A DNA stretch of 64,000 bases from contig CANNAN010000008.1 of NCBI GenBank assembly GCA_947502635.1, positions 62,001 to 126,000 of the forward strand, in the 5' to 3' direction. The translations under genes were made by a program, and so were the position numbers. The notes beneath the pieces are model-generated. The model saw nothing but the letters and a program-made list of their open reading frames with translations. It ran no database searches and was not told the origin of the DNA. The DNA comes from an uncultured Flavobacteriaceae bacterium. GTDB taxonomy: Bacteria > Bacteroidota > Bacteroidia > Flavobacteriales > Flavobacteriaceae. Below are positions 12,792-63,404 of the stretch, one piece after another (position 1 is the first letter of the stretch; the number at the start of each line of letters is the position of its first letter).

Positions 12792-12809
12792 AGTTTATAA
12801 TTTTGTTGA

Positions 12810-14135: not shown

Positions 14136-14151
14136 GTTATTTTAAAATATT

Positions 14152-18764: not shown

Positions 18765-18856
18765 AATGTAATGTGTTTTTATTTAGTTGATAAATGTATT
18801 CTTTAGTTTAATAAAAAGTTGGTTGTTTTGTTCAAAAGAAGAGAACAAATGATTTA

Positions 18857-19648: not shown

Positions 19649-19662
19649 TCTTAAATATTTTT

Positions 19663-20493: not shown

Positions 20494-20494
20494 T

Positions 20495-22033: not shown

Positions 22034-22043
22034 ACCTTTTGAT

Positions 22044-23667: not shown

Positions 23668-23669
23668 AT

Positions 23670-25322: not shown

Positions 25323-25330
25323 TTATATTT

Positions 25331-40689: not shown

Positions 40690-40702
40690 GAAATGAAAGC
40701 TC

Positions 40703-41503: not shown

Positions 41504-41516
41504 TAAATAGATACAG

Positions 41517-42674: not shown

Positions 42675-42728
42675 GCCGTTCCAAAACCTTGATTTTATAT
42701 AACTCATTTACAATTTAAAATAAAAATT

Positions 42729-43043
42729 ATGGCAAAAATAACTTTTATAACAACGGATAATAAAACAATAAACTTAGAAGGAACTTCGGGTTCTGTCATG
42801 CAACTAGCAGTAGATAATGGTGTTCCTGGTATTGATGGTGATTGTGGAGGAGTATGTTCCTGTGCAACATGCCATGTTCATGTAGCTCCAGAGCATGTTG
42901 GAAAAACAGGTGAGGCTAGTGAGATAGAAGAAGACATGCTGGATTTAAACGATTATTCAAATGAACGTAGTCGTTTATGCTGTCAACTTGAAATTAGTGA
43001 TGCACTTAATGGCTTGGTGCTTCAAGTAGCAGAATCAGATTAA
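42729..43043 (+). CDS. 2Fe-2S ferredoxin (adrenodoxin type), P450 partner
   Basis: A 104-residue plant/adrenodoxin-type ferredoxin. The cluster ligands are Cys 39, Cys 45 and Cys 48 in DCGGVCSCATCH and Cys 85 in RLCCQLEI; Cys 43 and Cys 84 are extra. Acidic residues between positions 58 and 80 fit docking to a P450. It follows the P450 by 54 bases and precedes its reductase, the order expected for an electron-transfer chain. Confidence 0.93.
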   Translation: MAKITFITTDNKTINLEGTSGSVMQLAVDNGVPGIDGDCGGVCSCATCHVHVAPEHVGKTGEASEIEEDMLDLNDYSNERSRLCCQLEISDALNGLVLQVAESD

Positions 43044-43112
43044 TTGAAGTAGCTCTAAAAAGAATTTTTAAGGAGAACGCTTTAAAATATATTTTTCATA
43101 AAAGTAAATTTA

Positions 43113-48012: not shown

Positions 48013-48783
48013 TTAACTTCCAATCAATTGATTTATTTTGAGTTGTGTTTTTTTTAGAGCATCAATTATGGTGTCGATGCTCGTATCCTCTTCTAAACTG
48101 GAAGAAAAAATAGAAATAGCTAAAACAGCATTTATATTAGAATTCTTAGAGCCTAATGGGACAGCAATATCAGTAACGCCACCAGTGAGCTTGCTTTTAG
48201 AGCATCTATAACCATCTTTTTCTATATTTTCAATAGTCGATAAAAGCGCTTCTTTTTGTTTTTTGTCCCATGTTTTAAAATGTTTATCTCTAGATAAAAT
48301 AGACAGTCTCTTTTCTTTCGAAAACATGGATAATAATGCGCTGCCAGAAGTTGTCATAGATAATGGGAAATGTGTGCCTTCTTCAATGGATAATGATACA
48401 GGGCTGGGACTTCTCATTTGATAAATTACCAATAGCTGATCATTATTCATGATGCTTAAATGACAAGACTGTCGGGTAGTTTCAGATAAGTGCTGCATGG
48501 GGTATCGAGCGACACGTTTTAGCTCATCAAATGGTGTATGTGTATGAGATAAATTGTACATTTTTAATGATAATCTATATTTGCCAGCATTAGTTCCTCT
48601 TATTAAATAGCCGCGTTCCTCTAGGCATATTAGCATTCTATATATTTCGCTAGGTGTCCTGTCTATGCCTTGAGCAATTTCAACCTGAGTTAAAGGAATA
48701 CCTTCTTGAGATAAATATTCAATGATATCAAGACCCTTGTCTAATGCAGGAGCGTTATATTTTGTAGAATTAATTTTAGCCAT
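48013..48783 (-). CDS. IclR-family transcriptional regulator
   Basis: A 256-residue IclR-type regulator. Residues 10-70 are the winged helix (LDIIEYLSQEGIPLTQVEIAQ, RTPSEIYRMLICLEERGYLI). The rest is the effector-binding domain (THTPFDELKRVARYPMQHLSE, ISIEEGTHFP, RCSKSKLTGGVTDIAVP). It is transcribed divergently from the RhaT/CoA-transferase operon, with a candidate operator in the spacer. IclR proteins often sense acids or sugar-acid intermediates, which would fit the operon; the ligand is not known. Confidence 0.92.
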   Translation of the reverse strand: MAKINSTKYNAPALDKGLDIIEYLSQEGIPLTQVEIAQGIDRTPSEIYRMLICLEERGYLIRGTNAGKYRLSLKMYNLSHTHTPFDELKRVARYPMQHLSETTRQSCHLSIMNNDQLLVIYQMRSPSPVSLSIEEGTHFPLSMTTSGSALLSMFSKEKRLSILSRDKHFKTWDKKQKEALLSTIENIEKDGYRCSKSKLTGGVTDIAVPLGSKNSNINAVLAISIFSSSLEEDTSIDTIIDALKKTQLKINQLIGS

Positions 48784-48828
48784 TAAGTAACTATATATAA
48801 TGCAATATTAATAAAAACTATTTGGTTC

Positions 48829-48867
48829 TTGTATTATTCATATATAAAATATATTTTTGTATATGAA
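48829..48867 (+). promoter_or_regulatory. Promoter with overlapping inverted repeat (candidate IclR operator)
   Basis: TTG (48829-48831) and TATTTTTG (48852-48859), 20 bases apart, match the Bacteroidetes -33/-7 elements. The -7 box lies inside an 8-base inverted repeat TTCATATA (48837-48844) / TATATGAA (48860-48867). A bound dimer there would block the promoter of the operon that starts at 48898. Confidence 0.6.
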
Positions 48868-48897
48868 ATTTTAAAATTAATTTATAGCTAAATAATT

Positions 48898-49968
48898 ATG
48901 GCAAATCCATTAATAGGTACCTTAATTCATGCCATTGGAGGCGTAGCTGCTTCTACATGCTATGTTCCTTTTCAAAAAGTTAAAAAGTGGTCTTGGGATT
49001 CTTATTGGATCGTTCAAGCTTCTTTTGCGTGGTTTATTTTTCCATTTTTAATAGGGTTCTTAACAGTGCCTAATCTCATGAGTGTTTTTACAGATGCATC
49101 ATCTGAGGTTTTGATAAACGCGACATTATTAGGAGCTGTTTATGGTTTTGGAGGGATGTGTTTTGGGTTTGCAATTAAACATATAGGATATTCCTTAACC
49201 TATACTATATCTATCGGTATCTCTGCGATTTTAGGAACGATTGTCCCCTTAGTAATGCATGGCGAATTGTTGCAAAAGTTTAACGCTCCAGGAGGTTATA
49301 CAATCTTTTTCGGAATGGGTTTAGCACTTGTTGGTATTATAATATGTGGTATTGCTGGTTATAGAAAAGAAAAGGATTTAAAGAATAATAATGTTAATAA
49401 AGGAGAGGCTTTAACTTTTAATATGAAAAAAGGGTTGACACTTACTTTAATTGCAGGTGTCTTGTCTGCTGTTTTTGGAATTTCGTTAGAAGTAGGAGCG
49501 CCTGTTGCCGAAATTGCAGGAAACTATGGAGCAGGAAATTTTGAAGGTAATGCTAACTTGATATTATCAACTGGAGGTGCTTTTATTATTAACTTTATTT
49601 GGTTTATCGTTGTAGGTATAAAAAATAATACCCTAAAGGAAATTATTGATGTTAAGGGCGTAGGTAAAAAGAGCTTGGTGTTAAATTTTGGAATGTCAAT
49701 TCTTAGTGGCGCCTTATGGTATGGTCAATTCTTTTTTTACGGAATAGGGCATGTGCAAATGGGAGCCTACAAGTTTGCAAGTTGGGTGTTACACATGTCG
49801 ATGCTCATATTTTTTAGCTATATCGTTGGTATTGTTATGAAAGAATGGAAACAGGTAACAAAACGGACTTATTTTACTTTAGTACTAGCACTTATAGTTT
49901 TAGTTATTTCTTTTGTAATTATGGCTTATGGAAGTAAGTTAGGGACAGAAATAATAACAGGTCATTAG
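48898..49968 (+). CDS. RhaT-type sugar/H+ symporter
   Basis: A 356-residue membrane protein of the L-rhamnose:H+ symporter family with about ten helices. The N-terminus HAIGGVAASTCYVPFQKVKKWSWDSYWIV is the clearest family mark. GALWYGQFFFYGIGHVQMGAYKFASW appears late in the protein. It brings a 6-deoxy sugar or related monosaccharide across the inner membrane. It opens the operon containing the two CoA-transferases; the actual substrate is unknown, and a rhamnose pathway (RhaA, RhaB, RhaD) is not in this window. Confidence 0.85.
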   Translation: MANPLIGTLIHAIGGVAASTCYVPFQKVKKWSWDSYWIVQASFAWFIFPFLIGFLTVPNLMSVFTDASSEVLINATLLGAVYGFGGMCFGFAIKHIGYSLTYTISIGISAILGTIVPLVMHGELLQKFNAPGGYTIFFGMGLALVGIIICGIAGYRKEKDLKNNNVNKGEALTFNMKKGLTLTLIAGVLSAVFGISLEVGAPVAEIAGNYGAGNFEGNANLILSTGGAFIINFIWFIVVGIKNNTLKEIIDVKGVGKKSLVLNFGMSILSGALWYGQFFFYGIGHVQMGAYKFASWVLHMSMLIFFSYIVGIVMKEWKQVTKRTYFTLVLALIVLVISFVIMAYGSKLGTEIITGH

Positions 49969-49995
49969 ATAAAAATTATTATACCATATATTAGA

Positions 49996-51150
49996 ATGAG
50001 TACAAAAAGAATACAATTAAAAGGAATTACATGGAATCATAGTAGAGGTTTTACTTCCATGGTAGCCACTGCACAACGTTTTTCAGAATTACATCCAAAC
50101 GTTGATATTACATGGGAAAAAAGATCGTTACAAGCATTTGCAGATGAACCAATAAACGAATTAGCAAAAAGATATGATTTGCTAATTATTGATCATCCAT
50201 GGGCAGGGTTTGCTGGTAAAAATAATGTAATTCTACCTTTGGATACCTATTTGCCTAAAGCATTTATGGATGATTTAGCAGAAAATACCGTAGGACGTTC
50301 TCATGAAAGCTACTCGTCAAATAATCACCAATGGGCTTTAGCGGTTGATGCTGCCACACCAGTGGCTGCAAGTAGACCAGATATTCTTACTGAAAAGGGA
50401 TATAAACTTCCAGAAACATATGATGATTTATTAACTTTAGCTAAAGAAGGATTAGTCATCATGCCAGGAATACCACAAGACACATTAATGAATTTTTATA
50501 TGATGTGTTGCACTTTAGGAGAAGATGTCTGTGTTTCACAAGATCATGTTGTGAGCGAAGAAATAGGTGTTAAAGCATTACAATTATTGCGAGCATTGGC
50601 TGTTGAAATGGACCCTCAAATTTTCGATTGGAATCCAATTCGGGTATACGAAGCGATGACACTTACAGATAAATATGCTTATTGCCCATGGGCATATGGC
50701 TATACAAACTATAGCAGAAAAGGTTATGCACGTAAGTTATTGCATTTTCATGACATGGTAGATATTAAAGGTTTTGGAAAAGCAATTACGACTCTGGGAG
50801 GAACGGGATTAGCTGTTTCTGCAGAAGCAAAAGAGATAGAGACTATTATGAAATATGTGGAGTATGTAGGCTCTGAAGCTTGTCAAAAAACAGTGTTTTT
50901 TGATGGAGGTGGGCAGCCTGGCCATAGAAAAGCATGGACAGATGCATATACTAATAGTATAACTTCAAATTTCTTTAAAAATACATTGCCTAGTTTAGAT
51001 CGTGCATTTTTACGCCCACGTTATAACGGACATATGTACTTTCAAGACAGAGCTGGAGCGCCTATTAGAGATTATTTGATGCATGGAGGTGATGAAAAAG
51101 CATTACTTACTCAGATGAATATTTTATATAAAGAATCACTAGACATTTAA
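49996..51150 (+). CDS. Solute-binding-protein-fold protein without signal peptide (1)
   Basis: A 384-residue protein with the type 1 extracellular solute-binding fold: GITWNHSRGFTSMVATAQRFSELHPNVDITWEKR, RYDLLIIDHPWAG, LPETYDDLLTLAKEG and FFDGGGQPGHRKAW. The N-terminus MSTKRIQLKGITW has no hydrophobic signal or lipobox, so it should stay in the cytoplasm. No ABC permease or ATPase gene is nearby. It follows the symporter by 27 bases and precedes the first CoA-transferase. It could be a soluble sensor, a ligand carrier or an enzyme on an SBP fold. Confidence 0.75.
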   Translation: MSTKRIQLKGITWNHSRGFTSMVATAQRFSELHPNVDITWEKRSLQAFADEPINELAKRYDLLIIDHPWAGFAGKNNVILPLDTYLPKAFMDDLAENTVGRSHESYSSNNHQWALAVDAATPVAASRPDILTEKGYKLPETYDDLLTLAKEGLVIMPGIPQDTLMNFYMMCCTLGEDVCVSQDHVVSEEIGVKALQLLRALAVEMDPQIFDWNPIRVYEAMTLTDKYAYCPWAYGYTNYSRKGYARKLLHFHDMVDIKGFGKAITTLGGTGLAVSAEAKEIETIMKYVEYVGSEACQKTVFFDGGGQPGHRKAWTDAYTNSITSNFFKNTLPSLDRAFLRPRYNGHMYFQDRAGAPIRDYLMHGGDEKALLTQMNILYKESLDI

Positions 51151-51225
51151 AAGTATTTCATAGCTCATTATACTCGCTTGTTGACAAGGCATGTCTAATC
51201 GAATTAATAAAATAAATATAAACAG

Positions 51226-52368
51226 ATGAAACCATTAGAAGGTATTTTAGTTCTTGAATTTGCACAGTTTATGGCGGGGCCGTCTGCTGGATTAAAATTG
51301 GCAGATTTAGGAGCAAGGGTTATAAAAATAGAAAGACCAAATCATGGTGAGGCAGGAAGACAAATAGCCTTAAAAAATTTATTTTTAGATGGAAGCAGTT
51401 TAGTTTTTCATACAGTAAATAGAAATAAAGATTCTTATGCAGCGAATTTAAAAGATGCAGATGATTTAGATCGCGTTAAAAAGCTAATTAGTCAAGCAGA
51501 TGTTATGACCCATAATTTCCGACCTGGCGTTATGGAAAAAATTGGCTTAGATTATCAAACAGTTCAGAAAATTAATCCTCAATTAGTTTATGCAACTGTT
51601 ACTGGGTATGGAACAGAAGGTCCGTGGGCTAAAAAGCCAGGGCAAGATTTATTGATTCAGTCCATGTCTGGGTTTGCAAATTTAACAGGAAATAAAAATG
51701 ATGATCCTGTTCCTGTTGGGGCAGCTGTTTCTGATATCATCACGGGTACACATTTGGCTCATGGTATTTTAGCAAGCTTTTTAAAAAGGATAAAAACAAA
51801 TAATGGATCGTTGGTAGAGGTTAGTTTGTTGGAATCTACTTTAGATTTTCAGTTTGAAGTTATTACAACTTATTTGAACGATGGTAATAAAAAACCTGTA
51901 AGAGCAAAACAGGGCGCGGCACATGCTTACCTAGGAGCGCCTTATGGTGTTTATAAAACAAAAGATGGCTATATGGCAATTGCTATGGGGTCGCTATTGA
52001 AATTAGGGGAAGTTATAGGTTGTAAAGCGTTAGATGTCTTTACAAATACAGATTCTTGGTTTACTCAAAGAGATGAAATCATGGCTATTTTAGGCGATTT
52101 CTTAATTCATAAAAATACGGATGATTGGTTAGATATACTAGAACCCGCAGGTGTTTGGTGCTCTGATGTTTTTGATTATAAGACCTTATTGAGGCATGAA
52201 GCCTATAAAGTATTAAAAATGGATCAAAAATTACCATTGCTTTCAGGCGAAGAAGTCCATACAATACGCTGTCCGATACGATTGAATGATGAACGATTAT
52301 TTGCTTCTAAGCCAGCTCCAAGAGTTGGTCAACATACAGAGGATCTCATTAAAGAATTTAATCTGTAA
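51226..52368 (+). CDS. Class III (CaiB/BaiF) CoA-transferase, first of pair
   Basis: A 380-residue family III CoA-transferase. The N-terminus [36 protein letters not shown] and [15 protein letters not shown] are typical. The catalytic Asp aligns at residue 170 in [10 protein letters not shown]. These enzymes move CoA between acids through an aspartyl-CoA anhydride. It is about 56% identical to the next gene over the first 170 residues by eye. It lies between a signal-less solute-binding-fold protein and its paralogue, so the acid is probably derived from the transported sugar. The CoA donor is unknown; a racemase role is the alternative. Confidence 0.85.
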
Positions 52369-52385
52369 ATCTAAAAATTAGTAAA

Positions 52386-53531
52386 ATGAAACCATTAGAA
52401 GATATATTAGTTATAGATTTAAGTCAGTTTTTATCAGCACCTTCTGCAACTTTGCGTTTGGCAGATTTAGGAGCAAGAGTCATTAAAGTTGAAAGACCAA
52501 TAACAGGAGATATTTGTCGTCAATTATACGTTTCAAATGTGAATATAAATGGGGAGTCTTCCATTTTTAGAGCGATTAATAGAAATAAAGAAAGTTTTCA
52601 AGCAGATTTAAAGCATGCTATTGATAAACAACGTGTTTTAAAATTAGTAGAAAAAGCAGATGTTTTAGTTCATAATTTCAGACCTGGTGTCATTGAACGA
52701 TTGGGATTTGATTACGATACAATTAAAAAAATAAATCCAGGTATTGTTTATGGTGATATTTCAGGGTACGGATCAGAAGGACCATGGAGAAATAAGCCAG
52801 GACAAGATTTATTGGTACAATCTTTATCTGGTTTAACTTGGTTGAACGGCATTGAAGGAAGTGGGCCAACGCCAGTTGGCTTAGCTATTGTAGATATTTT
52901 ATCTGGAGCTCATTTAGTGCAAGGAATTTTAGCGGCTTTGATTAAAAAAGCTAAAACGGGCAACGGCACCAAAGTTTCAGTAAGCATGTTGGAGTCTATT
53001 ATAGATTTTCAATTTGAATCCATTACAACTTTTTATCAAGATGGCGGGCAGCCTACTGTGCGTCCAGCAAGTAATAGTGCTCATGCTTATTTAGGAGCTC
53101 CCTACGGTGTTTATAAAACTCAAAATGGTTATTTAGCTTTAGCAATGGGAGCCATTCCTTTTATTGGTGAATTGTTAGGGTGTGAAGCGCTTTTGAGGTA
53201 TAAAGACGTGGCAAGTTGGTTTGATGATAGGGATGCGATTAAAAAAATATTGGCAGATCATTTGAGTACGGGCACTACCGAAAAATGGCTATCCTTATTG
53301 GAGCCTGCAGATATTTGGTGCGCTAATATAATGGATTGGGAAACACTATTTGCTACCGATGGGTTTAAGGTGTTAGATATGATTCAAAAGGTACAAATGA
53401 GTGATGGTTTTGAATACGAAACAACACGCTGTCCTATTAAAATTGATGGTGAATATTTAACGTCGCCCATAGGATGTCCTGCATTGGGAGAGCACACAAA
53501 TTCAATAGTGAATGAGCTAATTGAAGACTGA
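52386..53531 (+). CDS. Class III (CaiB/BaiF) CoA-transferase, second of pair
   Basis: A 381-residue paralogue of the preceding protein, with the same length and layout and a conserved catalytic Asp at residue 170 ([10 protein letters not shown]). The family forms interlocked dimers, so a heterodimer of the two products is possible. The stop codon overlaps the start of the second solute-binding-fold gene by one base. Differences in the substrate-facing loops (residues 40-62 and 150-162) suggest that the two differ in role. Function is inferred. Confidence 0.85.
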
Positions 53532-54766
53532 TGAAATCAAATAAATTTAGAATTGCTGTTCGTAAATTTGATGCGTTTGAATCAGCAATAAATAAAATAT
53601 GGAAGTCTTTTTGTGATGAAACGGGCTGTCATTTAGAGTTGGAGGCGGTTCCTTTAGATTTGCACCCATTATACCATACTATTCTAAAAGAAAAGGGGTT
53701 GGCAAATGGTACTTGGGATGTGTCTTTAATGAACACAGATTGGATTACAGAAGCTTATACTACTAATGCTATTGAAGATTTAACACCATATATTAATAAA
53801 AATGCGCCTAGTAATTTTCCTGACGGATGGTCGAGGTCCTTACTTTATAAACAAGAATTTGAAAATAAAATAGTAGGGCTACCATTTCATGACGGACCAG
53901 AATGCTTAATCTATAGAAAAGACCTGTTCGAATCTGCTAAAGAAGGTACAGATTTCTACAAAAAATATGGAAAACCATTAGAAATTCCAGAAACATGGGA
54001 TGATTTAATAGAAGTTGCTGAATTTTTCAATAGACCAGAAGATCATTTGTACGGAACTACTTTTGCAGCGTATCCAGATGGTCATAATACAGTGTTTGAT
54101 TTCTGCTTGCAATTATGGACCCGTGGTGGAGAATTATTTGATGATAATAAAAAAATAAAATTAAATTCAGGACAGGTCATTAAAGGCATGGAGTTTTACA
54201 GAAAGGCACTTCAAAATTCAAATGCAATTCATCCAGAATCGAGAGATTTTGATTCTGTAAAATCAGGCATGGCGTTCGCTAATGGTCATTTAGCGATGAT
54301 GGTAAACTGGTTTGGATTTGCCTCAATGTGTGAGTTTTTGGAAAATTCGAAAGTTAAAGGAAAAGTCGATATTGCCAACGTGCCAGCAGGGCCAGATGGT
54401 GAAGGGGCCTCTTTAAATGCCTATTGGATGTATGTTATTGGAAGCGGCAGTAAACATAAAGATTTAGCATACGAATTTATTAAATATGCAGTGAACGAAG
54501 AAAATGATAAACTACTAACCTTAGAAGGCGCTATAGGTTGTCGTAAATCTACCTGGCATGATGCCGATGTAAATAATAAAATTCCTTATTATCACAAATT
54601 AGAAGCCTTGCATAAAAACACACGATCACTCCCTAGAAAAAGTAATTGGTCTGAAATAGCAGATGTCATTGATCAATTGGTTTTAGATGTCATTAATACT
54701 TCAAAAGATATCAAGTCTATTATAGATTCTGCACAAAAGGAAATTGATCGCATAGAAAATATTTAG
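53531..54766 (+). CDS. Solute-binding-protein-fold protein without signal peptide (2)
   Basis: A 411-residue type 1 solute-binding-fold protein: LPFHDGPECLIYRKDLFE, IPETWDDLIEVAEFFNRPEDHLYGTTFAAY, LQLWTRGGELFDD, HLAMMVNWFGFASM and NVPAGPDGEGASLNAYWMYVIG. It starts [17 protein letters not shown] with no signal peptide, so it should be cytoplasmic. It is clearly different from the first such protein in the operon. It overlaps the CoA-transferase stop by one base and is followed after three bases by the oxidoreductase, which shows tight co-translation. As with the first, no transporter subunits accompany it. Confidence 0.75.
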   Translation: MKSNKFRIAVRKFDAFESAINKIWKSFCDETGCHLELEAVPLDLHPLYHTILKEKGLANGTWDVSLMNTDWITEAYTTNAIEDLTPYINKNAPSNFPDGWSRSLLYKQEFENKIVGLPFHDGPECLIYRKDLFESAKEGTDFYKKYGKPLEIPETWDDLIEVAEFFNRPEDHLYGTTFAAYPDGHNTVFDFCLQLWTRGGELFDDNKKIKLNSGQVIKGMEFYRKALQNSNAIHPESRDFDSVKSGMAFANGHLAMMVNWFGFASMCEFLENSKVKGKVDIANVPAGPDGEGASLNAYWMYVIGSGSKHKDLAYEFIKYAVNEENDKLLTLEGAIGCRKSTWHDADVNNKIPYYHKLEALHKNTRSLPRKSNWSEIADVIDQLVLDVINTSKDIKSIIDSAQKEIDRIENI

Positions 54767-54768
54767 TT

Positions 54769-55839
54769 ATGGAATTAATTTATAAACCAGAATTACCAAA
54801 AGAAAAACGTCCAATATATATCATTGGGGCAGGAGGTATAGTTCGTGATGCACATTTGCCAGCATATAGAAATGCAGGTTTTGTCGTTGAAGGTATTACT
54901 AACAGAACCAAACAAAGAGCTATAGATTTAGCTGAAATGTTTAAGATTCCTAATGTTTACAATAATGTAGAAGAGATGGTAGCTGTAGCTCCAGAAAATG
55001 CTGTTTTTGATTTAACACTAATGCCAAACCAATTTGTGGCTACCTTAGAATTATTACCAAACGAATCTGCGGTATTGATTCAAAAACCAATGGGTGATAA
55101 TTATGGACAGACTTTAGAGATTTTAGAGGTTTGTAGAAGAAAAAAACTAAAGGCTGCTATTAATTGTCAAATGCGTTTTGCTCCATATGTTATGGCTGCT
55201 AAATATCTAATAGAACAAGGTCTCATAGGTGAATTGTACGATTTTGAAGTCCGCTTAACAACCTATACACCATGGGAGTATTTTCCAAACGTGGTGAATC
55301 ATCCGCGTTTAGAAATTCAACAACATAGTATTCATTACATCGATTTGATTCGTTCATTTTTAGGAAATCCAAAGAAAGTGTATTCTAAAACATTGAAGAA
55401 TCCAGGAAAACCAATGTCCTCTACACGTACCACGACCATTATGGATTATAATGATGCGATGCGTGCGATTATCAATACCAATCACGATCATAATTTTGGA
55501 GAGAAAAATCAGGAAAGTTTTGTGAAATGGGAGGGGACTAAAGGCGCTATTAAGGCAAGAATAGGCTTGTTGTTGGATTATCCTAATGGAAAACCAGATT
55601 TATTCCAATATTGTATTGTTAAAGATGGGGAAGACCCTAAATGGGTTGAGGTGCCATTGGAAGGATCATGGTTTCCAGATGCTTTTGTGGGAACGATGGC
55701 ATCTTTAATGCGTTATGTTGAAGGTTCTACTGAAGAGCTTCCAACAAGTGTTGAAGATGTTGTGCATTCAATGGCCATAGTAGAATCTGCTTATCAATCT
55801 AATAATCATGGAGGTGTTACTCCAAACTATAATTTATGA
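54769..55839 (+). CDS. Gfo/Idh/MocA-family oxidoreductase
   Basis: A 356-residue NAD(P)-dependent oxidoreductase. YIIGAGGIVRDAHLPAYRNAGF is the Rossmann loop; VLIQKPMGDN holds the catalytic Lys (QKP rather than EKP). The C-terminal domain shows EIQQHSIHYIDLIRSFLG, with His and Asp of the usual active site. Members oxidise a sugar or cyclitol hydroxyl, or reduce a keto-sugar. It ends the operon and, with the symporter at the start, suggests that the carried compound is a sugar before any CoA chemistry. Confidence 0.85.
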   Translation: MELIYKPELPKEKRPIYIIGAGGIVRDAHLPAYRNAGFVVEGITNRTKQRAIDLAEMFKIPNVYNNVEEMVAVAPENAVFDLTLMPNQFVATLELLPNESAVLIQKPMGDNYGQTLEILEVCRRKKLKAAINCQMRFAPYVMAAKYLIEQGLIGELYDFEVRLTTYTPWEYFPNVVNHPRLEIQQHSIHYIDLIRSFLGNPKKVYSKTLKNPGKPMSSTRTTTIMDYNDAMRAIINTNHDHNFGEKNQESFVKWEGTKGAIKARIGLLLDYPNGKPDLFQYCIVKDGEDPKWVEVPLEGSWFPDAFVGTMASLMRYVEGSTEELPTSVEDVVHSMAIVESAYQSNNHGGVTPNYNL

Positions 55840-56041
55840 GAAGAAGTTTCTAATCTAATAAAAAAAGGAAATCAATTAAATTGGAGGTAGCAATGTTTTG
55901 AAAATTTTTGAAAGCAAATTTTCACTGGATTCGGGGTAATGTAAAAAGATAGTTGCGCTTATTTTTACGTATTCTTTATTATATTTTATTTAAAAAACAA
56001 GATTGAATATCGTTTGGGAGTGAATAAGCTATAAAAATAAA

Positions 56042-58261
56042 ATGAAAGAACTGCAAAAAATTTTTGAAGACCTACCGAGTAGATATAAAAAATACTTGTC
56101 AAACGTGGAGAAAGAGAAAGCAATGTATTTATACAGTGCTTATGATTTTTTTAGTTTAGAGCCATTTCATTGTGAAAGGACTAATATGCCGTTGGATAAA
56201 TTAAAATTTGAAACGTCTCTTGAAGCGCTAGAAGAACAAGACCAGTATCTGTGTATGCTCAAAGATCGAAAATTAATTTTTTCTCGATTGTTTTGTGGAG
56301 GAGAAACTTACTATGACAGCTTTTATAAAACAGAAGAAAACCTTTCGTGGCGCTATGAGATATATAGCAATCCAAATATTAAGAAGGCTGTGCATGTAGA
56401 ATATTTAGAAAAATTAGATTCAGGTGCTCCAAAATGTTTTAAAAAATTCGGGATGTATGGCGGGGAGCAACATGATTTTGTTTATGTGTCGGAGGTAGAA
56501 ATACATATTACTATTCATTATTTTGATTCAAAATGTAACGCTTCGTATTCTGAGCAGCGTAAAGTATACTTAAAAGCAGATCAATCTGGAGTGGATAAAA
56601 TTGTTTCTGTTGTAGAAGGAGTTGATGTTGAGGTTTTTGATGCAAATTTGGCTCAAGAATCAATTGATTCCTTGTTGGAGAAGTGTAAGCAATCCATTTT
56701 TGAAGTTATTAAAGAAGGTATTATATCCAATCCTCCAAAAGAAAAAGATATTTGTTTGTCTTTAATGGAATATAATATGCAATTCCCTTTTCCGCCAACT
56801 TTCGCTATGGCAACAGTTCAGGAAAAAGAATCTATATTGGAAGAGTATGATGGTGGATCTTTAAGTTGGATTAATGCTCCAGATCTTCGTTTGTTTAGTG
56901 AAGATGGTGTTTTTTCGATTGATTTTAATAAAGATGATGCATTGTATTCTAGAACGAATGCCTTAATCGAAGACCTCCCTTTCGAAGAAGTAGAACCTAA
57001 AGTTATAGATGTTTATGTTGAAATATCCAAAGCTCTAAAAAATGATGAAATGTTTAATGAAAGCATTAATCAGACCAAAGATTATTTTGTTTTAGCAAGG
57101 GATTATAACGCTTGTAATGAAGAAATGTTTATGGAAAAAACACTTCCCAGAAAAGTCTGGGCTGAGTGGGAAAAAGAAATAAATGAAAGAGAACAAAAAG
57201 AACAAAGTGCGTTTGATCAAGATGAAGAAATTATTGAAGTAAAACGAATTATTCAAGAACAACTAGATCGTTACCCTCATATTTTAGAACAAAATCAAAA
57301 ACGAGAAGGAAAAAATTTTTATAGTATATCTCAAGAGTATTATAGTGAGCCTTTTTATAAGGAATTAACAAAACATAAACCTTCTTATGGTTGGATGGAA
57401 AGATTGCAGACAGATGTTCCAGATGCTAAATCCTATTTTCATTATAAAATAAAAGACAGGAAACCTTATATGATTAAAGAATTTTATGATGGAAGTTTAT
57501 TGAGAATTGATTTTTTAGAACATCATAAAAATACATTATATCACCATAATTTTCATGTTAAGGAAAAACCTAGTCTGGAAGAGTATAGTATAATCCAATA
57601 TCGCAATGGTTTACCTGTTGAGTGTCTAAAATACTCAGATTTAAGATTTGAATCCATAAACTATCTGGTTGAAGAAGATAAAATAGTAAGAGCTAATGTT
57701 TCTCATACTATGTATTTTTCACGATATAAAGACGAAACTAAGCATGATTATGAGTATATGTATAAGGATGAGAATCTGTATCGAATTGACATGATAAATA
57801 TGGGTAATAGATCGGTGAGATTTTGTGTAGATGATTCTTATATGTATGAAGTAATAGATAATATGGTTGCTCTTTTAAGTAAACTGATCGTACCTGTTAT
57901 TGGAAAGGAAAATTTAGCATCACTCAAAGGAATAGTTTTAGAGTATGAAGACCGAATGACTTTTCCGCCAAAAGTGTACTTGGTGCAACAAGATGATTTT
58001 ACAGAAGTTGATATTCCTAATATTTGGAATAGTGATGTTGATGATGTAATGACCAATTTTAAAGTATACACTTTTATTGGTCATACGAGTGAAGGGCTTA
58101 GATTTGAGCCAGAGTCATGTCTACAATTTGTCAATTTAGCGTATAAGAAACTTTGCAAGGCAATTAATAGTCTTCTAAAAGAAGAGAATGCGATTGATAT
58201 TAAGGTGGTATATAAGGAGCAATATCAGCCAACGGAAGAGGTCTTAAAGGAACTGAGCTAA
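56042..58261 (+). CDS. Large protein of unknown function with internal duplication
   Basis: A 739-residue protein with no recognised family and no signal peptide. It appears to consist of two related halves (about 1-370 and 430-739) joined by a charged linker. The pair MLKDRKLIFSRLFCGGETYYD and KIKDRKPYMIKEFYDGSLLRID, and the pair MEYNMQFPFPPTFAMATVQ and LEYEDRMTFPPKVYLVQQD, mark the repeat. It is acidic. It lies between the two CoA-related operons but shows no link to sugar metabolism. A toxin-immunity type role is a guess based on the YwqG-like neighbour. Confidence 0.6.
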   Translation: MKELQKIFEDLPSRYKKYLSNVEKEKAMYLYSAYDFFSLEPFHCERTNMPLDKLKFETSLEALEEQDQYLCMLKDRKLIFSRLFCGGETYYDSFYKTEENLSWRYEIYSNPNIKKAVHVEYLEKLDSGAPKCFKKFGMYGGEQHDFVYVSEVEIHITIHYFDSKCNASYSEQRKVYLKADQSGVDKIVSVVEGVDVEVFDANLAQESIDSLLEKCKQSIFEVIKEGIISNPPKEKDICLSLMEYNMQFPFPPTFAMATVQEKESILEEYDGGSLSWINAPDLRLFSEDGVFSIDFNKDDALYSRTNALIEDLPFEEVEPKVIDVYVEISKALKNDEMFNESINQTKDYFVLARDYNACNEEMFMEKTLPRKVWAEWEKEINEREQKEQSAFDQDEEIIEVKRIIQEQLDRYPHILEQNQKREGKNFYSISQEYYSEPFYKELTKHKPSYGWMERLQTDVPDAKSYFHYKIKDRKPYMIKEFYDGSLLRIDFLEHHKNTLYHHNFHVKEKPSLEEYSIIQYRNGLPVECLKYSDLRFESINYLVEEDKIVRANVSHTMYFSRYKDETKHDYEYMYKDENLYRIDMINMGNRSVRFCVDDSYMYEVIDNMVALLSKLIVPVIGKENLASLKGIVLEYEDRMTFPPKVYLVQQDDFTEVDIPNIWNSDVDDVMTNFKVYTFIGHTSEGLRFEPESCLQFVNLAYKKLCKAINSLLKEENAIDIKVVYKEQYQPTEEVLKELS

Positions 58262-58458
58262 AGATTAAGTGTTTTAGCTAATTTGAAAATAAAATTCTCA
58301 TCTACCATTTGTAATCATAAAAAAGGGGGTAACGAATGTTTCCTATAATTACTAACAGCTTGTCATGCCCCAAGAGATAACAATTTTCACTGAAAACAGG
58401 GTATTATAACTAGTCTGAACTGGGTATTTTTGCTTTTATTAATTAGTAACAATATCCC

Positions 58459-59322
58459 ATGATCAACAAGAAAGAACATTTAAACATACTTAAAAACAAA
58501 TTTGATAAAATCAAATGGGAAAACCCCAATACCATAAAGAAGTCTTATTTTGATTTTATCGAATCAGAAACTATTCCAGCTATAAAAATTGAAGGAGTAG
58601 TTTCAAAAAAAATAACCTTAGGAATGTCAAAAATAGGAGGTACGCCTCATTTAGCACCTAACATGAAATGGCCAGAGTATGAAGGTGCTCCTATGGTGTT
58701 TTTTGCACAATTGAATTTTTCTGAAATAGCATCGAATCACGTTCAAGATTATTTACCTAAAAGTGGCATTTTATATTTCTTTGCGCACTATGAAGAACCA
58801 ATAAATGAATATGGAGCAGAATTTGAATTTATAGAGCCTAAAGAAAAATACCAGGTGCTTTTTTATGACGGAGATGATATGGCTCAATTAAAGAATGTGC
58901 CTTTTCCAAAAACACTGCCCCTTGGTTATCAATTTAAAGAATCGGCAATAAGCTTTGAACCTTTTTTTGAGGTTCCAAACGATATTTATAGCTATACAGA
59001 ATTTGAGGAAAATCTTTCTAACAATGATTATAATCATATCATCGAATTTCACGAAGCAATATCAAAAGATTCAGATGCAAGTCAAATATTAGGAGTACCT
59101 CCAGCGATTCAGGATGATGTGGCTTACGATTGGGTGTATGCATATATGGAAGAAGAGGAATGTGATGTAGATGAAGATGAATTGGCGGAAGAATTTGTTA
59201 ACATACTATCTATGCCTATTTTTAGCAATATTGGTGATGCACAAGGGTATTTTGGAATTCGAAAAGACGATTTAGCCGACAAAAATTTTGAGGCATGTGT
59301 TTTTGTTATGCAGGGCACGTAG
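58459..59322 (+). CDS. DUF1963 (YwqG-like) protein
   Basis: A 287-residue protein with the DUF1963 pattern: SKIGGTPHLAPNMKWPEYEGAPMVFFAQLNFSEI, GILYFFAHYEEP, and IGDAQGYFGIRKDDLADKNFEACVFVMQG at the end. Residues about 230-250 are very acidic (EEEECDVDEDELAEEF). The function of the family is not known; some members occur in polymorphic-toxin settings as possible immunity proteins. It is the second gene of the insert between the two CoA-related operons. Confidence 0.75.
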   Translation: MINKKEHLNILKNKFDKIKWENPNTIKKSYFDFIESETIPAIKIEGVVSKKITLGMSKIGGTPHLAPNMKWPEYEGAPMVFFAQLNFSEIASNHVQDYLPKSGILYFFAHYEEPINEYGAEFEFIEPKEKYQVLFYDGDDMAQLKNVPFPKTLPLGYQFKESAISFEPFFEVPNDIYSYTEFEENLSNNDYNHIIEFHEAISKDSDASQILGVPPAIQDDVAYDWVYAYMEEEECDVDEDELAEEFVNILSMPIFSNIGDAQGYFGIRKDDLADKNFEACVFVMQGT

Positions 59323-59467
59323 AAGTATTTGTCAATTGGTTGATAAAAAATAACATATAAAAGCTTTGACTAAATGCTTGATTAAGAGTTTGTAGCTTTT
59401 AGTTTCAGTACTAGTCTTAGCTCAATTTTATTAGGTTTAAAGGAGGTTTTTATTACGTTAAACGCAG

Positions 59468-59941
59468 TTGAAATTAAAAAACCTAAGAAAGGTGAAAACA
59501 AAATTCCAAAATATTTCTATACTAAAAATAAGTATTTTTTTATTTGTTATTCTTTTTTCAAACTTTCTAACATACGCCCAAATTAAACCTGAAAAACAAA
59601 AAATGTTAAATCAAAATTTTCAGTATGGAGTAATTGTTGAGTTAAAGATTAATGAAAAATTGCATTTTGAGGATTCTCTGTCTATCTCATTAACTGAATT
59701 TAGTCACAAACGACCATATATTGGAGGTCCAACAAAAGCAACGGCATATCTTTCTCTTTTCAAAGGAGATATCCATGAAGAAATAATGCTTTCTATTCAT
59801 GGAATAGAGGGAGAATCGAAATCTAGTGATGGACTTTCTGATTCAGAGCGCTACGATTCCTTAGTTTGGATGGAATATGAGTTTCAGCTTAAGAATTTCG
59901 ATTATGATAAATCTGTTAAAATTATTATTTCCAAAAAATAG
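59468..59941 (+). CDS. Small secreted protein of unknown function
   Basis: A 157-residue protein with an N-terminal hydrophobic segment (residues 18-36) and a likely signal cleavage after TYAQ, so it would be exported. The rest is hydrophilic with a repeated DSLS/SDGLSDSERYDSL pattern and no family I recognise. The start is uncertain: no ATG is in place, a TTG at 59468 or a GTG at 59492 could serve, and an AAAGGAGG stretch 22-29 bases upstream is too far for either. The gene may be shorter than given. Confidence 0.45.
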   Translation: MKLKNLRKVKTKFQNISILKISIFLFVILFSNFLTYAQIKPEKQKMLNQNFQYGVIVELKINEKLHFEDSLSISLTEFSHKRPYIGGPTKATAYLSLFKGDIHEEIMLSIHGIEGESKSSDGLSDSERYDSLVWMEYEFQLKNFDYDKSVKIIISKK

Positions 59942-60497
59942 TGAACCAAATTTTTGAATTTAGTTTTTTTAATAAAAAAATAAAAAGACATGGAAAATAA
60001 TTCATGAATCTTTCATATTCAAAAATTATAATCAATTAAAACCTTCTATCAATATTGTATAAGAGCAATTATCCTATAACTAAAATTATAAGCTAAAACG
60101 AAGTCTTTTAAACTAAAATTTGTTCAATAGTTCTTAGCATATAATTTTCTGCTTTTTACGATTGCAAACACTTTTAATAAATACATTGAATTTCTTTTAA
60201 AAACATTAAAAAGATCTGAATATTTCTAATTAGAGGAACTCGTGAAAGCTTATTCTTGCTCTCTCCAATTTGAGCGGTTATATTATCTGTTAAATGACTC
60301 ATGTTTCTAAAAAAAAATCAAATTTAAACTGTTTAAAAGAAAGGGTTTAGCATATGACCTAAAAAAGGTGGTATTTGAACTTTTTGGCGGTGAAGAAAGT
60401 ATCATTTGAGAACAAAATTCTAAGGAACTTTATTTAACTTCGCCACCGGATAAATTGTTAGTTTAACAAAGGGAAAAATAATAAATAAAATTATATA
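59942..60497. other. Intergenic region before the SDR-MaoC-sulfatase operon
   Basis: About 556 AT-rich bases with no gene I can support. Near the end GGCGGTGAAG (about 60389) and CTTCGCCACC (about 60439) form a weak, imperfect inverted pair. The 16-mer TAAATTGTTAGTTTAA follows at 60451-60466. The promoter of the SDR operon must lie here but is not clear. Confidence 0.45.
60451..60466 (+). repeat. Leader 16-mer shared with the P450 operon
   Basis: TAAATTGTTAGTTTAA, identical to 39541-39556, about 31 bases before the SDR start codon. In both places it falls in the presumed 5' leader of an operon. Confidence 0.4.
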
Positions 60498-61268
60498 ATG
60501 AGTATTTTGAACAAATTTAGTTTAGAAGGAAAAACAGCTTTAATAACAGGGTGTAAAAGAGGTATTGGAAAAGCTATGGCAATTGGTCTGGCAGAAGCAG
60601 GTGCTAATATTATTGGTGTGTCAGCTTCATTGGAATTGGAAGGTAGCGATGTTGAAAAAGAAGTACAGGCTGTAGGTAAAAGTTTTAAAGCTTATCAATG
60701 TGATTTTTCAGATAGAAAGGCATTGTATACTTTTATAGCAGAAGCTAAAAAAGACAATCCGACCATAGATATTTTAGTAAACAACGCAGGAACTATTTTA
60801 AGAGCTCCAGCTGTTGAGCATTCAGATGATCTGTGGGATAAAGTAATTGAAGTAAACCAGAATGCACAGTTTATTTTAACGAGAGAGTTCGGTAAAGATA
60901 TGGTGTCAAGAGGTTCTGGTAAAGTAATATTTACAGCGTCGTTATTAACATTTCAGGGAGGAATCACCGTTCCTGGGTATGCTGCAAGTAAAGGAGCTAT
61001 AGGACAATTAACAATGGCTTTTGCTAACGAATGGGCAGGGAAAGGTGTTAATGTAAATGCGATAGCACCTGGCTATATTTCAACAGATAATACAGAAGCT
61101 TTACGAAATGATAAGACTAGAGCTGAATCTATTTTATCTCGTATTCCTGCTGGTAGATGGGGTGAAGCTGAAGATTTTGCTGGTCCAACAGTATTTTTAG
61201 CTTCAGAAGCTGCTGCTTACATGAATGGTACTACTGTTCTTGTTGACGGAGGCTGGATGGGTAGATAG
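60498..61268 (+). CDS. KduD-type short-chain dehydrogenase
   Basis: A 256-residue classical SDR with the cofactor loop TGCKRGIG (residues about 18-25), NNAG, the catalytic Ser in FTASLL and Tyr/Lys in YAASK. Overall form (MSILNKFSLEGKTALITG, NAIAPGYISTDNTEALRND, RIPAGRWGEAEDFAGPTVFLASE) is that of 2-deoxy-D-gluconate 3-dehydrogenase/KduD enzymes, which oxidise keto-deoxy sugar acids. It starts an operon with MaoC and a sulfatase. In the KduD pathway one would expect KduI and KDG genes, which are absent, so another sugar acid or hydroxyacyl substrate is likely. Confidence 0.85.
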   Translation: MSILNKFSLEGKTALITGCKRGIGKAMAIGLAEAGANIIGVSASLELEGSDVEKEVQAVGKSFKAYQCDFSDRKALYTFIAEAKKDNPTIDILVNNAGTILRAPAVEHSDDLWDKVIEVNQNAQFILTREFGKDMVSRGSGKVIFTASLLTFQGGITVPGYAASKGAIGQLTMAFANEWAGKGVNVNAIAPGYISTDNTEALRNDKTRAESILSRIPAGRWGEAEDFAGPTVFLASEAAAYMNGTTVLVDGGWMGR

Positions 61269-61291
61269 TTTCATCACAAAAATATTAAGAC

Positions 61292-61744
61292 ATGCACATT
61301 GTATCAAGATTTTATGAAGATTACGAATTAGGTAGTAAAAGGGAGACTTTAGGAAGAACGATTACTGAAACAGATTTTGTTGTTCATGCTGGGCATACAG
61401 GGGATTATTTTCCACATCATATGGATGCCGAATGGTGTAAAAAACAGCCCTTTAAACAACGAATAGCCCATGGAACACTTACATTTAGTGTTGGTATTGG
61501 TATGACTGCTACAGAGATTAATCCAGAGGCCTTTTCTAAAGGGTATGACCGATTGCGTTTTATAAAGCCAGTATATATTGGAGATACAATTCGAGTTGTA
61601 GTAACGATTAGTGAAAAGAAAGAATCCAAGCGTCCCGAATTGGGACATGTTAATGAGCATGTTGAAATATTTAATCAACGAGATGAGTTGGTTTTAGTTT
61701 GTGATCATATTTTGCTAGCTAAGAAAAAAGAATTTGAAGCCTAA
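61292..61744 (+). CDS. MaoC-type (R)-hydratase/dehydratase
   Basis: A 150-residue hot-dog-fold protein. [18 protein letters not shown] (Asp 38 and His 42/43) is the hydratase signature, followed by [13 protein letters not shown] and the C-terminal strand [13 protein letters not shown]. MaoC enzymes hydrate or dehydrate the double bond of acyl-CoA thioesters. Its place 23 bases after a KduD-type SDR, and in the same region as two CoA-transferases, gives the acyl-CoA that such an enzyme needs. The actual substrate is unknown. Confidence 0.88.
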
Positions 61745-61781
61745 AATTTTATAAATACCTCTTTTTAAATAACCAAAAAGA

Positions 61782-63404
61782 ATGAAAAATATAAAGACAT
61801 TAAAATTTTCTGTAATCTTAGGATTATTATTTTGTGGATTGGTATTTATTTCTTGTGGGCAAACTGAGAAAAAGGCAGCTAAAAAACCAAATATCATCTA
61901 TATTATGACAGATGATCATGCAGCTGGAGCAACAGGTATGTATGGAGGGCGTTTAGCAAGTTTAAATCCAACGCCAAATTTGGATAGGTTAGGAAGTGAA
62001 GGGATGGTTTTTGATAATTGTTTTGTTACGAATTCTATCTGTACTCCAAGTAGAGCGTCTATTATGACAGGGCAATACAGTCAGGCAAATGGTGTTTTAG
62101 ATTTGTGGCATGAATTAGATACAGAAAAGCAATATCTTCCACAAGAAATGAAAAAGTTGGGGTATAAAACGGCCATGATTGGAAAATGGCATTTACATTC
62201 GGAACCTGAAGCTTTTGATTATTATAAAGTACTGCCAAAACAAGGAAAGTATTTCGATCCAGTTTTTAGAGTACGTGGAGAAAAAGAATGGCCAAATAAT
62301 ACTGTTGAATACAAAGGACATTGTACAGATGTTATTACAGATCAAGTATTAGATTGGTTTGAAAATACAAAGGGTAATGATGAAACGCCTTTTTTCTTAA
62401 TGTATCATTTAAAAGCACCGCATGATATGTTTGAATTCAACCCTAAATATGCCGATTATTTAGAAAATGAATTTATTCCTGAACCAGAAAGTTTGTACAA
62501 TCAACCACTTTGGGGGTCTGAAGCAACTCGTGGTAAAAATGACAGTTTAGTAAATATGATAGGATCTTCTATTTCTAAAAGACATCCAAATCGTAGTTAT
62601 GTTAATGTTTATAAAACAGGTGATAAGCCTACAGAAAAAGAAGCAACTAGTGCTGCCTACCAAGAATATTTAAAAAGATATTTAAGATGCGTAAAAGGTG
62701 TAGATGATAACTTAGGACGTTTTTTTGATTATTTAAAAAAGAAAGGTCTGTGGGAAAACACGATTATAGTATATACTTCAGACCAAGGAATGATGTTAGG
62801 AGAACATGATTTTGAAGATAAGAGATGGATGTATGAGGAATCAATTCACATGCCTTTAATTGTTCGTTATCCAGAAAAGGTAGAGAAAGGCTCCAGAACA
62901 GATTTGATGGTAAATAATACCGATTTTGCGCCTACTTTAATAGAATTGGCTGGCGGTAAAAAACCAGAGTACATGCAAGGAGAAAGTGCACTGGAAATTT
63001 TAAAAGGAAACACACCTGAAGGCTGGAGAACAAGCACCTATTATCGCTATTGGATGCAAATGATCCATCATGATATTCCAGCTCATTTTGGAATAAGGAG
63101 CAAGGAACATAAATTAATTTTCTTTTACGGAAGACATTATGATTTAGAAAAAGAAGGCTCGCTTACTATGTATTGGAATGATGAAACGCATTCTAACAAA
63201 GTAGGAGTGACCCCAGCTGCTTGGGAGTTTTATGATATAAAGAATGATCCAGGAGAATTAGTGAATCAATACAGTAATCCAGAATATAAAGACATTATTG
63301 AAAAGATGAAGGCTGAATTGAAAGAAACAAGAAAAAAGCTAAATGAAGAAGATCATGATTATCCACATTTAAAAGAAATCATTGACGAACATTGGAATGA
63401 TTAA
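61782..63404 (+). CDS. Exported S1-family sulfatase
   Basis: A 540-residue lipoprotein (lipobox ISC, Cys 25). The sulfatase domain begins NIIYIMTDDHAAGATGMYGG with metal Asp residues; Cys 87 in CTPSRASIMTGQ is the formylglycine site. AMIGKWHLHSEPEAFDYY, YTSDQGMMLGEHDFEDKRWMYEESIHMPLIVRYP and YDIKNDPGELVNQYS are typical. It is the last gene of the SDR-MaoC operon, so it is expected to free the sugar that the cytosolic enzymes use. It differs from 31999-33822 and lacks the C-terminal extension. Confidence 0.92.
   Translation: MKNIKTLKFSVILGLLFCGLVFISCGQTEKKAAKKPNIIYIMTDDHAAGATGMYGGRLASLNPTPNLDRLGSEGMVFDNCFVTNSICTPSRASIMTGQYSQANGVLDLWHELDTEKQYLPQEMKKLGYKTAMIGKWHLHSEPEAFDYYKVLPKQGKYFDPVFRVRGEKEWPNNTVEYKGHCTDVITDQVLDWFENTKGNDETPFFLMYHLKAPHDMFEFNPKYADYLENEFIPEPESLYNQPLWGSEATRGKNDSLVNMIGSSISKRHPNRSYVNVYKTGDKPTEKEATSAAYQEYLKRYLRCVKGVDDNLGRFFDYLKKKGLWENTIIVYTSDQGMMLGEHDFEDKRWMYEESIHMPLIVRYPEKVEKGSRTDLMVNNTDFAPTLIELAGGKKPEYMQGESALEILKGNTPEGWRTSTYYRYWMQMIHHDIPAHFGIRSKEHKLIFFYGRHYDLEKEGSLTMYWNDETHSNKVGVTPAAWEFYDIKNDPGELVNQYSNPEYKDIIEKMKAELKETRKKLNEEDHDYPHLKEIIDEHWND

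Follow-up and report, generated by a model that had tools for sequence, protein, structure and literature searches.

The window analysed here, a 64,000-nucleotide stretch of contig CANNAN010000008.1 (positions 62,001 to 126,000, forward strand; assembly GCA_947502635.1) from an uncultured Flavobacteriaceae bacterium, carries at positions 48013-63404 a set of genes that may act together on a sugar acid bound to coenzyme A (CoA). Ten genes named there by an initial annotation were all found as intact open reading frames (ORFs) in the places and order described, and their families were confirmed by Pfam. An IclR-family regulator (48013-48783, minus strand; Pfam IclR_C 88 bits, HTH_IclR 42 bits) is divergent from an operon on the plus strand, which comprises a RhaT-like sugar/H+ symporter (48898-49968; Pfam RhaT 186 bits), a solute-binding-fold protein proposed to be a CoA-transferase partner (SBP1, 49996-51150; SBP_bac_1 40 bits), two class III CoA-transferases (CoAT1, 51226-52368, CoA_transf_3 322 bits; CoAT2, 52386-53531, 315 bits, 51% identity to CoAT1), a second solute-binding-fold protein proposed to be the partner of the following gene (SBP2, 53531-54766; SBP_bac_1 99 bits), and a Gfo/Idh/MocA oxidoreductase (54769-55839; Pfam GFO_IDH_MocA 40 bits). 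A second unit, also on the plus strand, consists of a KduD-like short-chain dehydrogenase/reductase (SDR, 60498-61268), a MaoC-type hot-dog CoA-thioester hydratase/dehydratase (61292-61744; MaoC_dehydratas 83 bits), and an accessory sulfatase (61782-63404; Sulfatase 195 bits) with a lipoprotein-like signal recognised by eye.

ORF coordinates and Pfam matches bear out the gene set, order and tight spacing reported initially: SBP1 and CoAT1 are separated by 75 bp, CoAT1 and CoAT2 by 17 bp, CoAT2 and SBP2 overlap by 1 bp, and SBP2 and Gfo/Idh are 2 bp apart. The two units lie 4.7 kb from each other, and the space between them holds three other plus-strand ORFs (56042-59941), which encode proteins of 739 amino acids (aa) without a Pfam match, 287 aa (DUF1963) and 157 aa without a Pfam match. 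Among the loci compared, the 739- and 287-aa ORFs match only the window itself, and none of the three ORFs is at this place in two genomes of the same genus (G019, G248); the three ORFs that separate the halves are probably inserted. The family labels given initially held in part. The porter belongs to the Pfam RhaT family and falls below the cut-offs of four RhaT equivalog models (best 298 bits, cut-off 468) and of the RhaT/GlcU subfamily model, and the SDR does not reach the KduD equivalog cut-off (TIGR01832, 323 bits against 339). SDR relatives of 78-95% identity are placed between Gfo/Idh or an alcohol dehydrogenase (ADH) and MaoC in other loci; the ADH present in these relatives' runs is missing from the window.

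Both solute-binding proteins (SBPs) score over the Pfam SBP_bac_1 cut-off, and the AlphaFold2 model of SBP1 is a confident alpha/beta structure (mean predicted local distance difference test score 93.2, predicted template modelling score 0.90). According to N-terminal hydropathy, the measure of export signals used here in place of a signal-peptide predictor, neither protein carries a signal, as was noted initially: the peaks are 0.39 for SBP1 and 0.29 for SBP2, versus 1.88-2.50 in eight exported SBPs of related loci. The peak of SBP1 does not exceed 1.07 in 14 loci (window included) or 0.98 in 46 aligned sequences, and that of SBP2 does not exceed 1.09 in three. ABC permease or ATPase genes were not found among the ORFs of at least 100 aa in 48013-63404. 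SBP1 has 103 invariant columns in the 46 sequences, each at least 61% identical to that of the window, and about 91 in a six-sequence set reaching down to 36% identity. SBP2 and Gfo/Idh form one 759-aa ORF in a single genome (G159), a case that could be an assembly error; a class-level search found SBP2 in five of 395 genomes, a number too small for statistics on fusions. Within the gene set the SBP-fold proteins are conserved cytosolic components, a point that the initial annotation had missed.

CoAT1 and CoAT2 are the only family III CoA-transferase matches in the 5.44 Mb genome of the window, and in both the CoA_transf_3 domain covers the whole protein (cut-off 23 bits). The best solved relative of CoAT1 is 9br6, a succinate-hydroxymethylglutarate CoA-transferase (198 bits). 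Asp170, which aligns with the 9br6 position and which we take to be the catalytic Asp, is kept in all 81 CoAT1 and all 84 CoAT2 sequences, a count that leaves out fused ORFs of more than 600 aa and a third CoAT group. The predicted activity is CoA transfer between acids; the named relatives with the highest scores have succinate, glutarate, mesaconate, oxalate and hydroxymethylglutarate as substrates, and the L-carnitine CoA-transferase equivalog is far from reached (78 and 80 bits, cut-off 413). CoAT1 and CoAT2 are a single fused ORF in seven of 11 Hymenobacter loci. CoAT and SBP1 genes overlap by 1-8 bp in nine of the 13 loci with fixed gene coordinates, the rest, window included, having gaps of 2-75 bp. 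When ORF starts were assigned mechanically, 39 of 90 adjacent CoAT/SBP1 pairs overlapped, 29 had gaps of 1-30 bp, five had gaps of 31-100 bp and 17 had longer ones.

The belonging together of the two units, supposed in the initial annotation, is supported by co-occurrence. Among 299 genomes of the family, MaoC (E <= 1e-30) is found in 14 and SBP1 (E <= 1e-40) in 22, and both occur in 13, versus 1.0 expected (Fisher p 4e-16, without correction for relatedness). Each of the 13 MaoC-SBP1 pairs is on the same contig, 1.1-19.6 kb apart, and the MaoC of G155, the sole MaoC genome without SBP1, is only 47% identical. The order RhaT-SBP1-CoAT1-CoAT2-SBP2-Gfo-ADH-SDR-MaoC is present in Persicobacter (L022) and in the Flavobacteriaceae loci L036, L038 and L040; L030 has the L036-like order plus an extra MaoC-like gene between the transferases, and single-run sets also occur in L131 and L132. 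The set forms one run in G248 and G019 as well, the latter with two extra genes before the SDR. Gfo/Idh relatives of 48-51% identity were observed in G050, G115, G203, G250, G257 and G270, all lacking SBP1 at E <= 1e-40; this oxidoreductase family has other uses there.

The hydratase position of the module is filled by either of two enzymes. A tblastn comparison of 111 loci gave 105 with both SBP1 and a CoA-transferase, and 96 of these have a thioester hydratase, with 56 carrying MaoC alone, 35 crotonase alone and five both; the other nine have neither. Some of these nine are explained by a distant MaoC, since it lies about 19 kb away in S. meliloti (L025) and 19.6 kb away in G169 (the contig of L034 and L136). 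Asp38 and His43 of MaoC, presumably the functional Asp/His dyad, are kept in 48 of 48 sequences, and Glu115 and Glu136 of the crotonase in 37 of 38 each. MaoC and crotonase are unrelated folds with a common CoA-thioester hydratase chemistry, and their exchange in one slot, with active-site residues intact, provides the strongest evidence for actual processing of a CoA thioester. In a fucose-type operon of Roseibium the window MaoC has a MaoC relative of 65% identity, and a solved close relative is 4ffu (200 bits). The PDB copy labels 4ffu 'oxidase', a name that looks wrong.

A profile scan of genome contigs with the six-sequence SBP1 alignment matched at least 593 stretches, at least 585 of which encode an SBP1 relative; the best 80 were kept, so that this sample leans to close relatives. 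All 80 best stretches have a class III CoA-transferase match no more than 605 bp from SBP1, and in 77 the distance is 300 bp at most. This core of class III CoA-transferase and signal-less SBP1 recurs in Bacteroidota, Proteobacteria and Actinomycetota, and the arrangement in the window is therefore not due to chance. Plasmid records extend the range to Rhizobiaceae, Roseibium, Thalassospira, Variovorax and Streptomyces.

Typing, which rests on between one and three query sequences for each family and on stretches some 20 kb long, covered 116 loci, 115 of them with SBP1 (L034 and L136 are one contig counted twice), and divided these into type A (73), type B (31), type C (nine) and two others. 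Loci with an SBP2 or MaoC match were classed as type A; this type has a CoA-transferase in 73 of 73 loci, MaoC in 67, and a Gfo/Idh match, which is no criterion for the type, in all 73. The count for SBP2 (71 of 73) is inflated, because five Proteobacterial loci match at only 24-26%, probably through an exported SBP. Regulator and porter matches in type A are IclR in 43, RhaT in 34 and FucP in 31 of the 73; GH29 fucosidase relatives accompany ten and GH78/GH106 rhamnosidases 29 type A loci, and none of the 31 type B loci. A relative of the window sulfatase is present in nine of 73 type A and two of 31 type B loci, and in Pedobacter and Hymenobacter the module is frequent and stands next to rhamnosidases, so the words 'desulfated' and 'algal', by which the initial annotation characterised the sugar, are not supported as general ones; sulfation seems to be incidental, and the desulfated sugar was rejected as a general reading. 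Type B, the crotonase version, has a CoA-transferase in 31 of 31 loci and an aldehyde dehydrogenase (ALDH) in 26, and relatives of an agarase protein with a carbohydrate-binding module adjoin seven of the 31, versus two of the 73 type A loci. Type C, defined by a UxuA-like gene, has an SDR in nine of nine loci and GH38 in six.

Some type C and similar loci have further features. L124-L130 and L137 combine RraA-like, UxuA-like and lactonase-like genes with SBP1, many also with GH38, and a CoA-transferase match is absent from the stretches of L128, L129, L130 and L137. In a Microvirga locus (L118, 5943-9176) an SBP1-like protein overlaps a UxuA-like gene pair, and the stretch has no CoA-transferase. 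Upstream of the module, L150 (1589-7404) and L151 (1192-6961) carry runs that by eye contain DapA-, transporter-, iron-ADH-, PdxA- and kinase-like genes, possibly for four-carbon acid sugars.

Genes of sugar oxidation share runs with the module in several lineages. In Streptomyces, Variovorax and Pseudosulfitobacter, an aldose epimerase, SDR, CoA-transferase, SBP1, crotonase and FAH-family gene stand together, and L124-L127 have in a single run an SDR, a 6-phosphogluconolactonase-like gene (165 of 500 bits in L124), SBP1, crotonase and CoA-transferase. The tight run of L134 reads MaoC-SBP1-CoAT1-CoAT2-fuconolactonase-like-RhaT-Gfo, with the lactonase at 145 of 400 bits. Roseibium, Shinella, Qingshengfaniella, Martelella and Thalassospira hold the module and a mutarotase in one locus, to which they variously add a lactonase-like amidohydrolase, an SDR, an annotated L-fuconate dehydratase and FAH. 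For 2,4-didehydro-3-deoxy-L-rhamnonate hydrolase, the FAH of Roseibium reaches 412 of 500 bits. This context of importers, dehydrogenases and lactonases in CoA-transferase-hydratase runs of other lineages supports the series of sugar import, oxidation, CoA loading and a hydratase step put forward in the initial annotation.

In the window itself, L-fucose oxidation genes that were missed initially lie on the minus strand at 17415-20493. They encode FucP (469 bits, over the cut-off), an L-fucose dehydrogenase (18857-19648; 357 bits, cut-off 300) about 28 kb from the module, and a fuconolactonase-like protein (274 bits to the L-fucono-1,5-lactonase model, cut-off 400). Relatives of some of these genes adjoin the module in L045, L152 and L166. 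In two genomes of the same family, G127 and G402, the module stands opposite a lactonase gene and a gene for an L-fucose dehydrogenase (73-74% identical to that of the window), and in G127 also opposite FAH and SDR genes. A FucD relative was not found at E <= 1e-8 in G127, G402, G159, G245 or G100, and G000 and G061 gave partial matches of 30%. L-rhamnose isomerase RhaA is absent from the genome of the window, which fits oxidative rhamnose use and proves nothing. The separate L-fucose set, taken as 17415-26341, also contains a fucosidase, a tagaturonate reductase (over the cut-off), a UxaA-family gene and a zinc ADH.

We propose, at about an even chance, that the gene set is a CoA-dependent aldonic-acid module, acting here most likely on the acid of a 6-deoxyhexose (L-fucose, L-rhamnose or a substituted form). 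RhaT would import the sugar, and Gfo/Idh or another dehydrogenase, together with a lactonase, would convert it into the aldonate. CoAT1 and CoAT2, aided by SBP1 as a putative cytosolic substrate-holding subunit (the role that SBP2 may have for Gfo/Idh), would load CoA onto the aldonate. The thioester would acidify the C2 proton, and MaoC would eliminate the C3 substituent rather than hydrate; the enol would become a 2-keto-3-deoxyacyl-CoA able to hand its CoA to the next aldonate. With CoA handed on by the transferase, it would be catalytic, and a ligase, thiolase or lyase would be unnecessary. The 2-keto-3-deoxy acid would then pass to the SDR and afterwards to ordinary aldolase or hydrolase routes. 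As for the leaving group, the coexisting classical dehydratases described below favour a substituted substrate that loses an alkoxy group, and the local lack of FucD in G127 and G402 favours a plain one that loses water.

L-Fuconate and L-rhamnonate are 3R and D-mannonate is 3S. According to one report, MaoC-type hydratases have the 3R sense and crotonase-type hydratases the 3S sense (PMC9007349). The C3 configuration thus fits in part, namely for MaoC in type A and for crotonase in the four complete type C loci. A broader and more tentative reading, to which we give clearly less than an even chance, is a third chemistry of sugar-acid dehydration beside the iron-sulfur and enolase-type ones, in which a heteromeric class III transferase activates the acid, a hydratase matched to the C3 configuration (MaoC for 3R, crotonase for 3S) acts on it, and former transport proteins serve as cytosolic substrate-holding subunits. 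Under such a chemistry the purpose of the module may be the opening of acids with an ether substituent (O-methyl, 3,6-anhydro) that are beyond the metalloenzymes. What would be new here is the substrate class and the cytosolic SBP subunits; the chemistry itself is of a known kind.

The closest parallel is the carnitine CaiB/CaiD scheme, in which a CoA-transferase and a crotonase dehydratase work with CoA cycling. As proposed for the module, a hydroxy acid receives CoA from a class III CoA-transferase and is then dehydrated as the thioester by a member of a hydratase family, with CoA cycling. However, crotonobetainyl-CoA:carnitine CoA-transferase structures score only 49-53 bits to CoAT1, and the module differs in having MaoC in the place of crotonase, two transferases, two SBPs and a sugar-catabolic context. 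A CoA-dependent ammonia lyase pathway reported for beta-valine (PMC4619459) is a further mechanistic precedent. The oxidative L-fucose/L-rhamnose pathway proceeds through a dehydrogenase, a lactonase, a dehydratase, a 2-keto-3-deoxy acid dehydrogenase and a 2,4-diketo acid hydrolase, and it works on free acids with metalloenzyme dehydratases. Some of its genes (FucP, L-fucose dehydrogenase, lactonase, SDR, FAH) adjoin the module in several loci; to our knowledge, no CoA-transferase or thioester hydratase belongs to it. Deoxyribose/deoxyribonate oxidation resembles the module in handling a sugar acid at the CoA level and employs a beta-keto acid cleavage enzyme, a type of protein that the ORF list and Pfam results did not reveal in 48013-63404. 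Glyceryl-CoA is mentioned for this oxidation in PMC9007349.

A further related system is the oxepin-CoA hydrolase of phenylacetate degradation, which is the PaaZ hydratase domain or a proposed crotonase-type substitute; the window MaoC scores 83 bits to the PaaZ model (cut-off 563). The oxepin-CoA step differs in concerning an aromatic-derived ring ether, and we know of no CoA-transferase or SBP in it. MaoC-type and crotonase-type enzymes were proposed to replace each other on this one CoA thioester (PMC9007349). Type B recalls catabolism of 3,6-anhydro-L-galactose (AHG) by AHG dehydrogenase and cycloisomerase, its ALDH being related to 6J75 (437 bits). The canonical AHG cycloisomerase functions without CoA. 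A further difference is that the two type B genomes examined each contain separate relatives of AHG dehydrogenase. 6J75 serves as an AHG dehydrogenase reference in PMC10163077, and AHGAD4985 is described as an active AHG dehydrogenase in PMC6581685. The further ALDHs of Flammeovirga SJP92 and Zobellia uliginosa are 88% and 74% identical, respectively, to the F. pacifica copy at the AHGAD4985 place; these AHGAD4985-place copies are 41-47% identical to the type B ALDH of Z. uliginosa, and the F. pacifica copy shares 40% identity with the type B ALDH used as query. The reading of type B as simply the AHG route is weakened by these further ALDHs. A described sugar pathway with the present gene set was not found in a literature search of limited aim that was thin on subscription journals and preprints, so the initial statement that none is described is left uncontradicted within that search.

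Several observations weigh against the aldonate module. The loci were selected by SBP1 similarity; SBP1 occurs without a CoA-transferase in six of the 111 loci (five of type C, two with a crotonase), and Gfo/Idh relatives occur without SBP1 in six of 19 genomes. Type C has a CoA-transferase in only four of nine loci and a crotonase in six, which leaves few loci of this type in support of the CoA scheme and the stereochemical fit, and type B fails to fit if its acid is 3,6-anhydro-L-galactonate, which is 3R and yet would meet a crotonase. The scheme gives no reason for two transferases or for the role of Gfo/Idh. Members of the UxaA and MR/MLE families are present in six of six genomes searched (G127 included, G402 not), and these members weaken the idea that a dehydratase is missing from the genome as a whole; of those in G127, one MR/MLE copy (C27) is 25% identical to an enolase-family reference and the UxaA copy (C22) lies beside a UxaB relative. 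A UxaA-family gene is also found in the window, and the annotated L-fuconate dehydratase stands beside the module in Roseibium and Shinella. As classical dehydratases coexist with the module, plain dehydration by it may be redundant. This coexistence is what speaks for an alternative that we consider rather unlikely, in which an O-methyl or 3,6-anhydro acid is loaded on CoA, the hydratase expels the C3 alkoxy group as methanol or by ring opening, and ordinary dehydratases take the resulting plain acid. Ether removal of this kind would also suit the UxuA-like genes in the four type C loci having a CoA-transferase, the second, AHGAD4985-like ALDH in both type B genomes examined, and the P450 genes, presumably of the 6-O-methylgalactose type, near two of 73 type A and three of 31 type B loci. 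Moreover, the oxepin-CoA ring is opened by MaoC-type and, as proposed, crotonase-type hydratases (PMC9007349). However, no methanol-handling gene is known to be tied to the module (none was searched for), the P450 link may reflect agar or porphyran habitats only, and the glycosidase families seen give no pointer to O-methyl specificity.

The substrates of the named CoA-transferase relatives, all small acids, bring in another possibility, that the transferases use as substrate not the aldonate but a small acid released from the sugar by cleavage (lactate, glycolate, glycerate or a dicarboxylate), as does the relation of the type B ALDH to lactaldehyde dehydrogenase/aldehyde dehydrogenase A (349 bits). 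We regard this as improbable: lactonase-like and sugar dehydrogenase genes share the CoA-transferase run in L134 and L124-L127, the transferase stays constant while the glycosidase context varies by version, and it is coupled to proteins of a sugar-binding fold. Class III relatives include alpha-methylacyl-CoA racemases (97 bits), and together with the coexisting classical dehydratase families this would allow the module to use the CoA thioester of the aldonate for epimerisation at C2 or C3, so as to make the aldonate fit for a classical dehydratase; the closest named relatives are nevertheless transferases, and the intact hydratase active sites would be needless for a pure racemase, which makes epimerisation a poor prospect. 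Finally, membership of the SBP_bac_1 family might suggest that the signal-less SBPs are decayed or mis-annotated transport proteins in an accidental neighbourhood. The invariant columns, the lack of a signal in all proteins tested, the SBP2-oxidoreductase fusion and the loci in three phyla make this very improbable, and a decayed ABC transporter was rejected on the same lack of a signal, conservation and fusion.

Other genes of the window were recorded beside these. Just before IclR lies a gene for a cysteine-rich lipoprotein-like protein without a Pfam match (47081-47866), and similar proteins occupy the same place in L030 and L036 (by clustering) and in L131 and L132 (by eye). One run at 39571-44369 contains ADH, esterase-like, P450-like, ferredoxin-like and ferredoxin-reductase-like genes, among which ADH alone has an NCBIfam match at E <= 1e-40; we take it to be a cluster of the 6-O-methyl-D-galactose demethylase type. 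P450 relatives recur near the module in L036, L041, L069 and L088. A lipoprotein-like protein of about 730 aa without a Pfam match is encoded at 33989-36184, and a DUF6786 protein at 36370-37569, the latter with relatives in three of 73 type A and seven of 31 type B loci. A xylose isomerase gene (over the cut-off) lies beside genes that by eye are kinase-like and SSS-type transporter-like (11118-15636).

If the proposed CoA-dependent module is real, a widespread catabolic route, with an SBP1 relative in at least 585 of at least 593 stretches, would have escaped notice because its parts bear the labels of transporter, fatty-acid and carnitine genes. Annotations such as 'extracellular solute-binding protein' in module loci would be corrected, CoA thioesters would join sugar-acid chemistry, and solute-binding proteins would have turned into cytosolic enzyme subunits. 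The module would then explain the use of deoxy- and substituted sugars by bacteria of algae, soil and roots.

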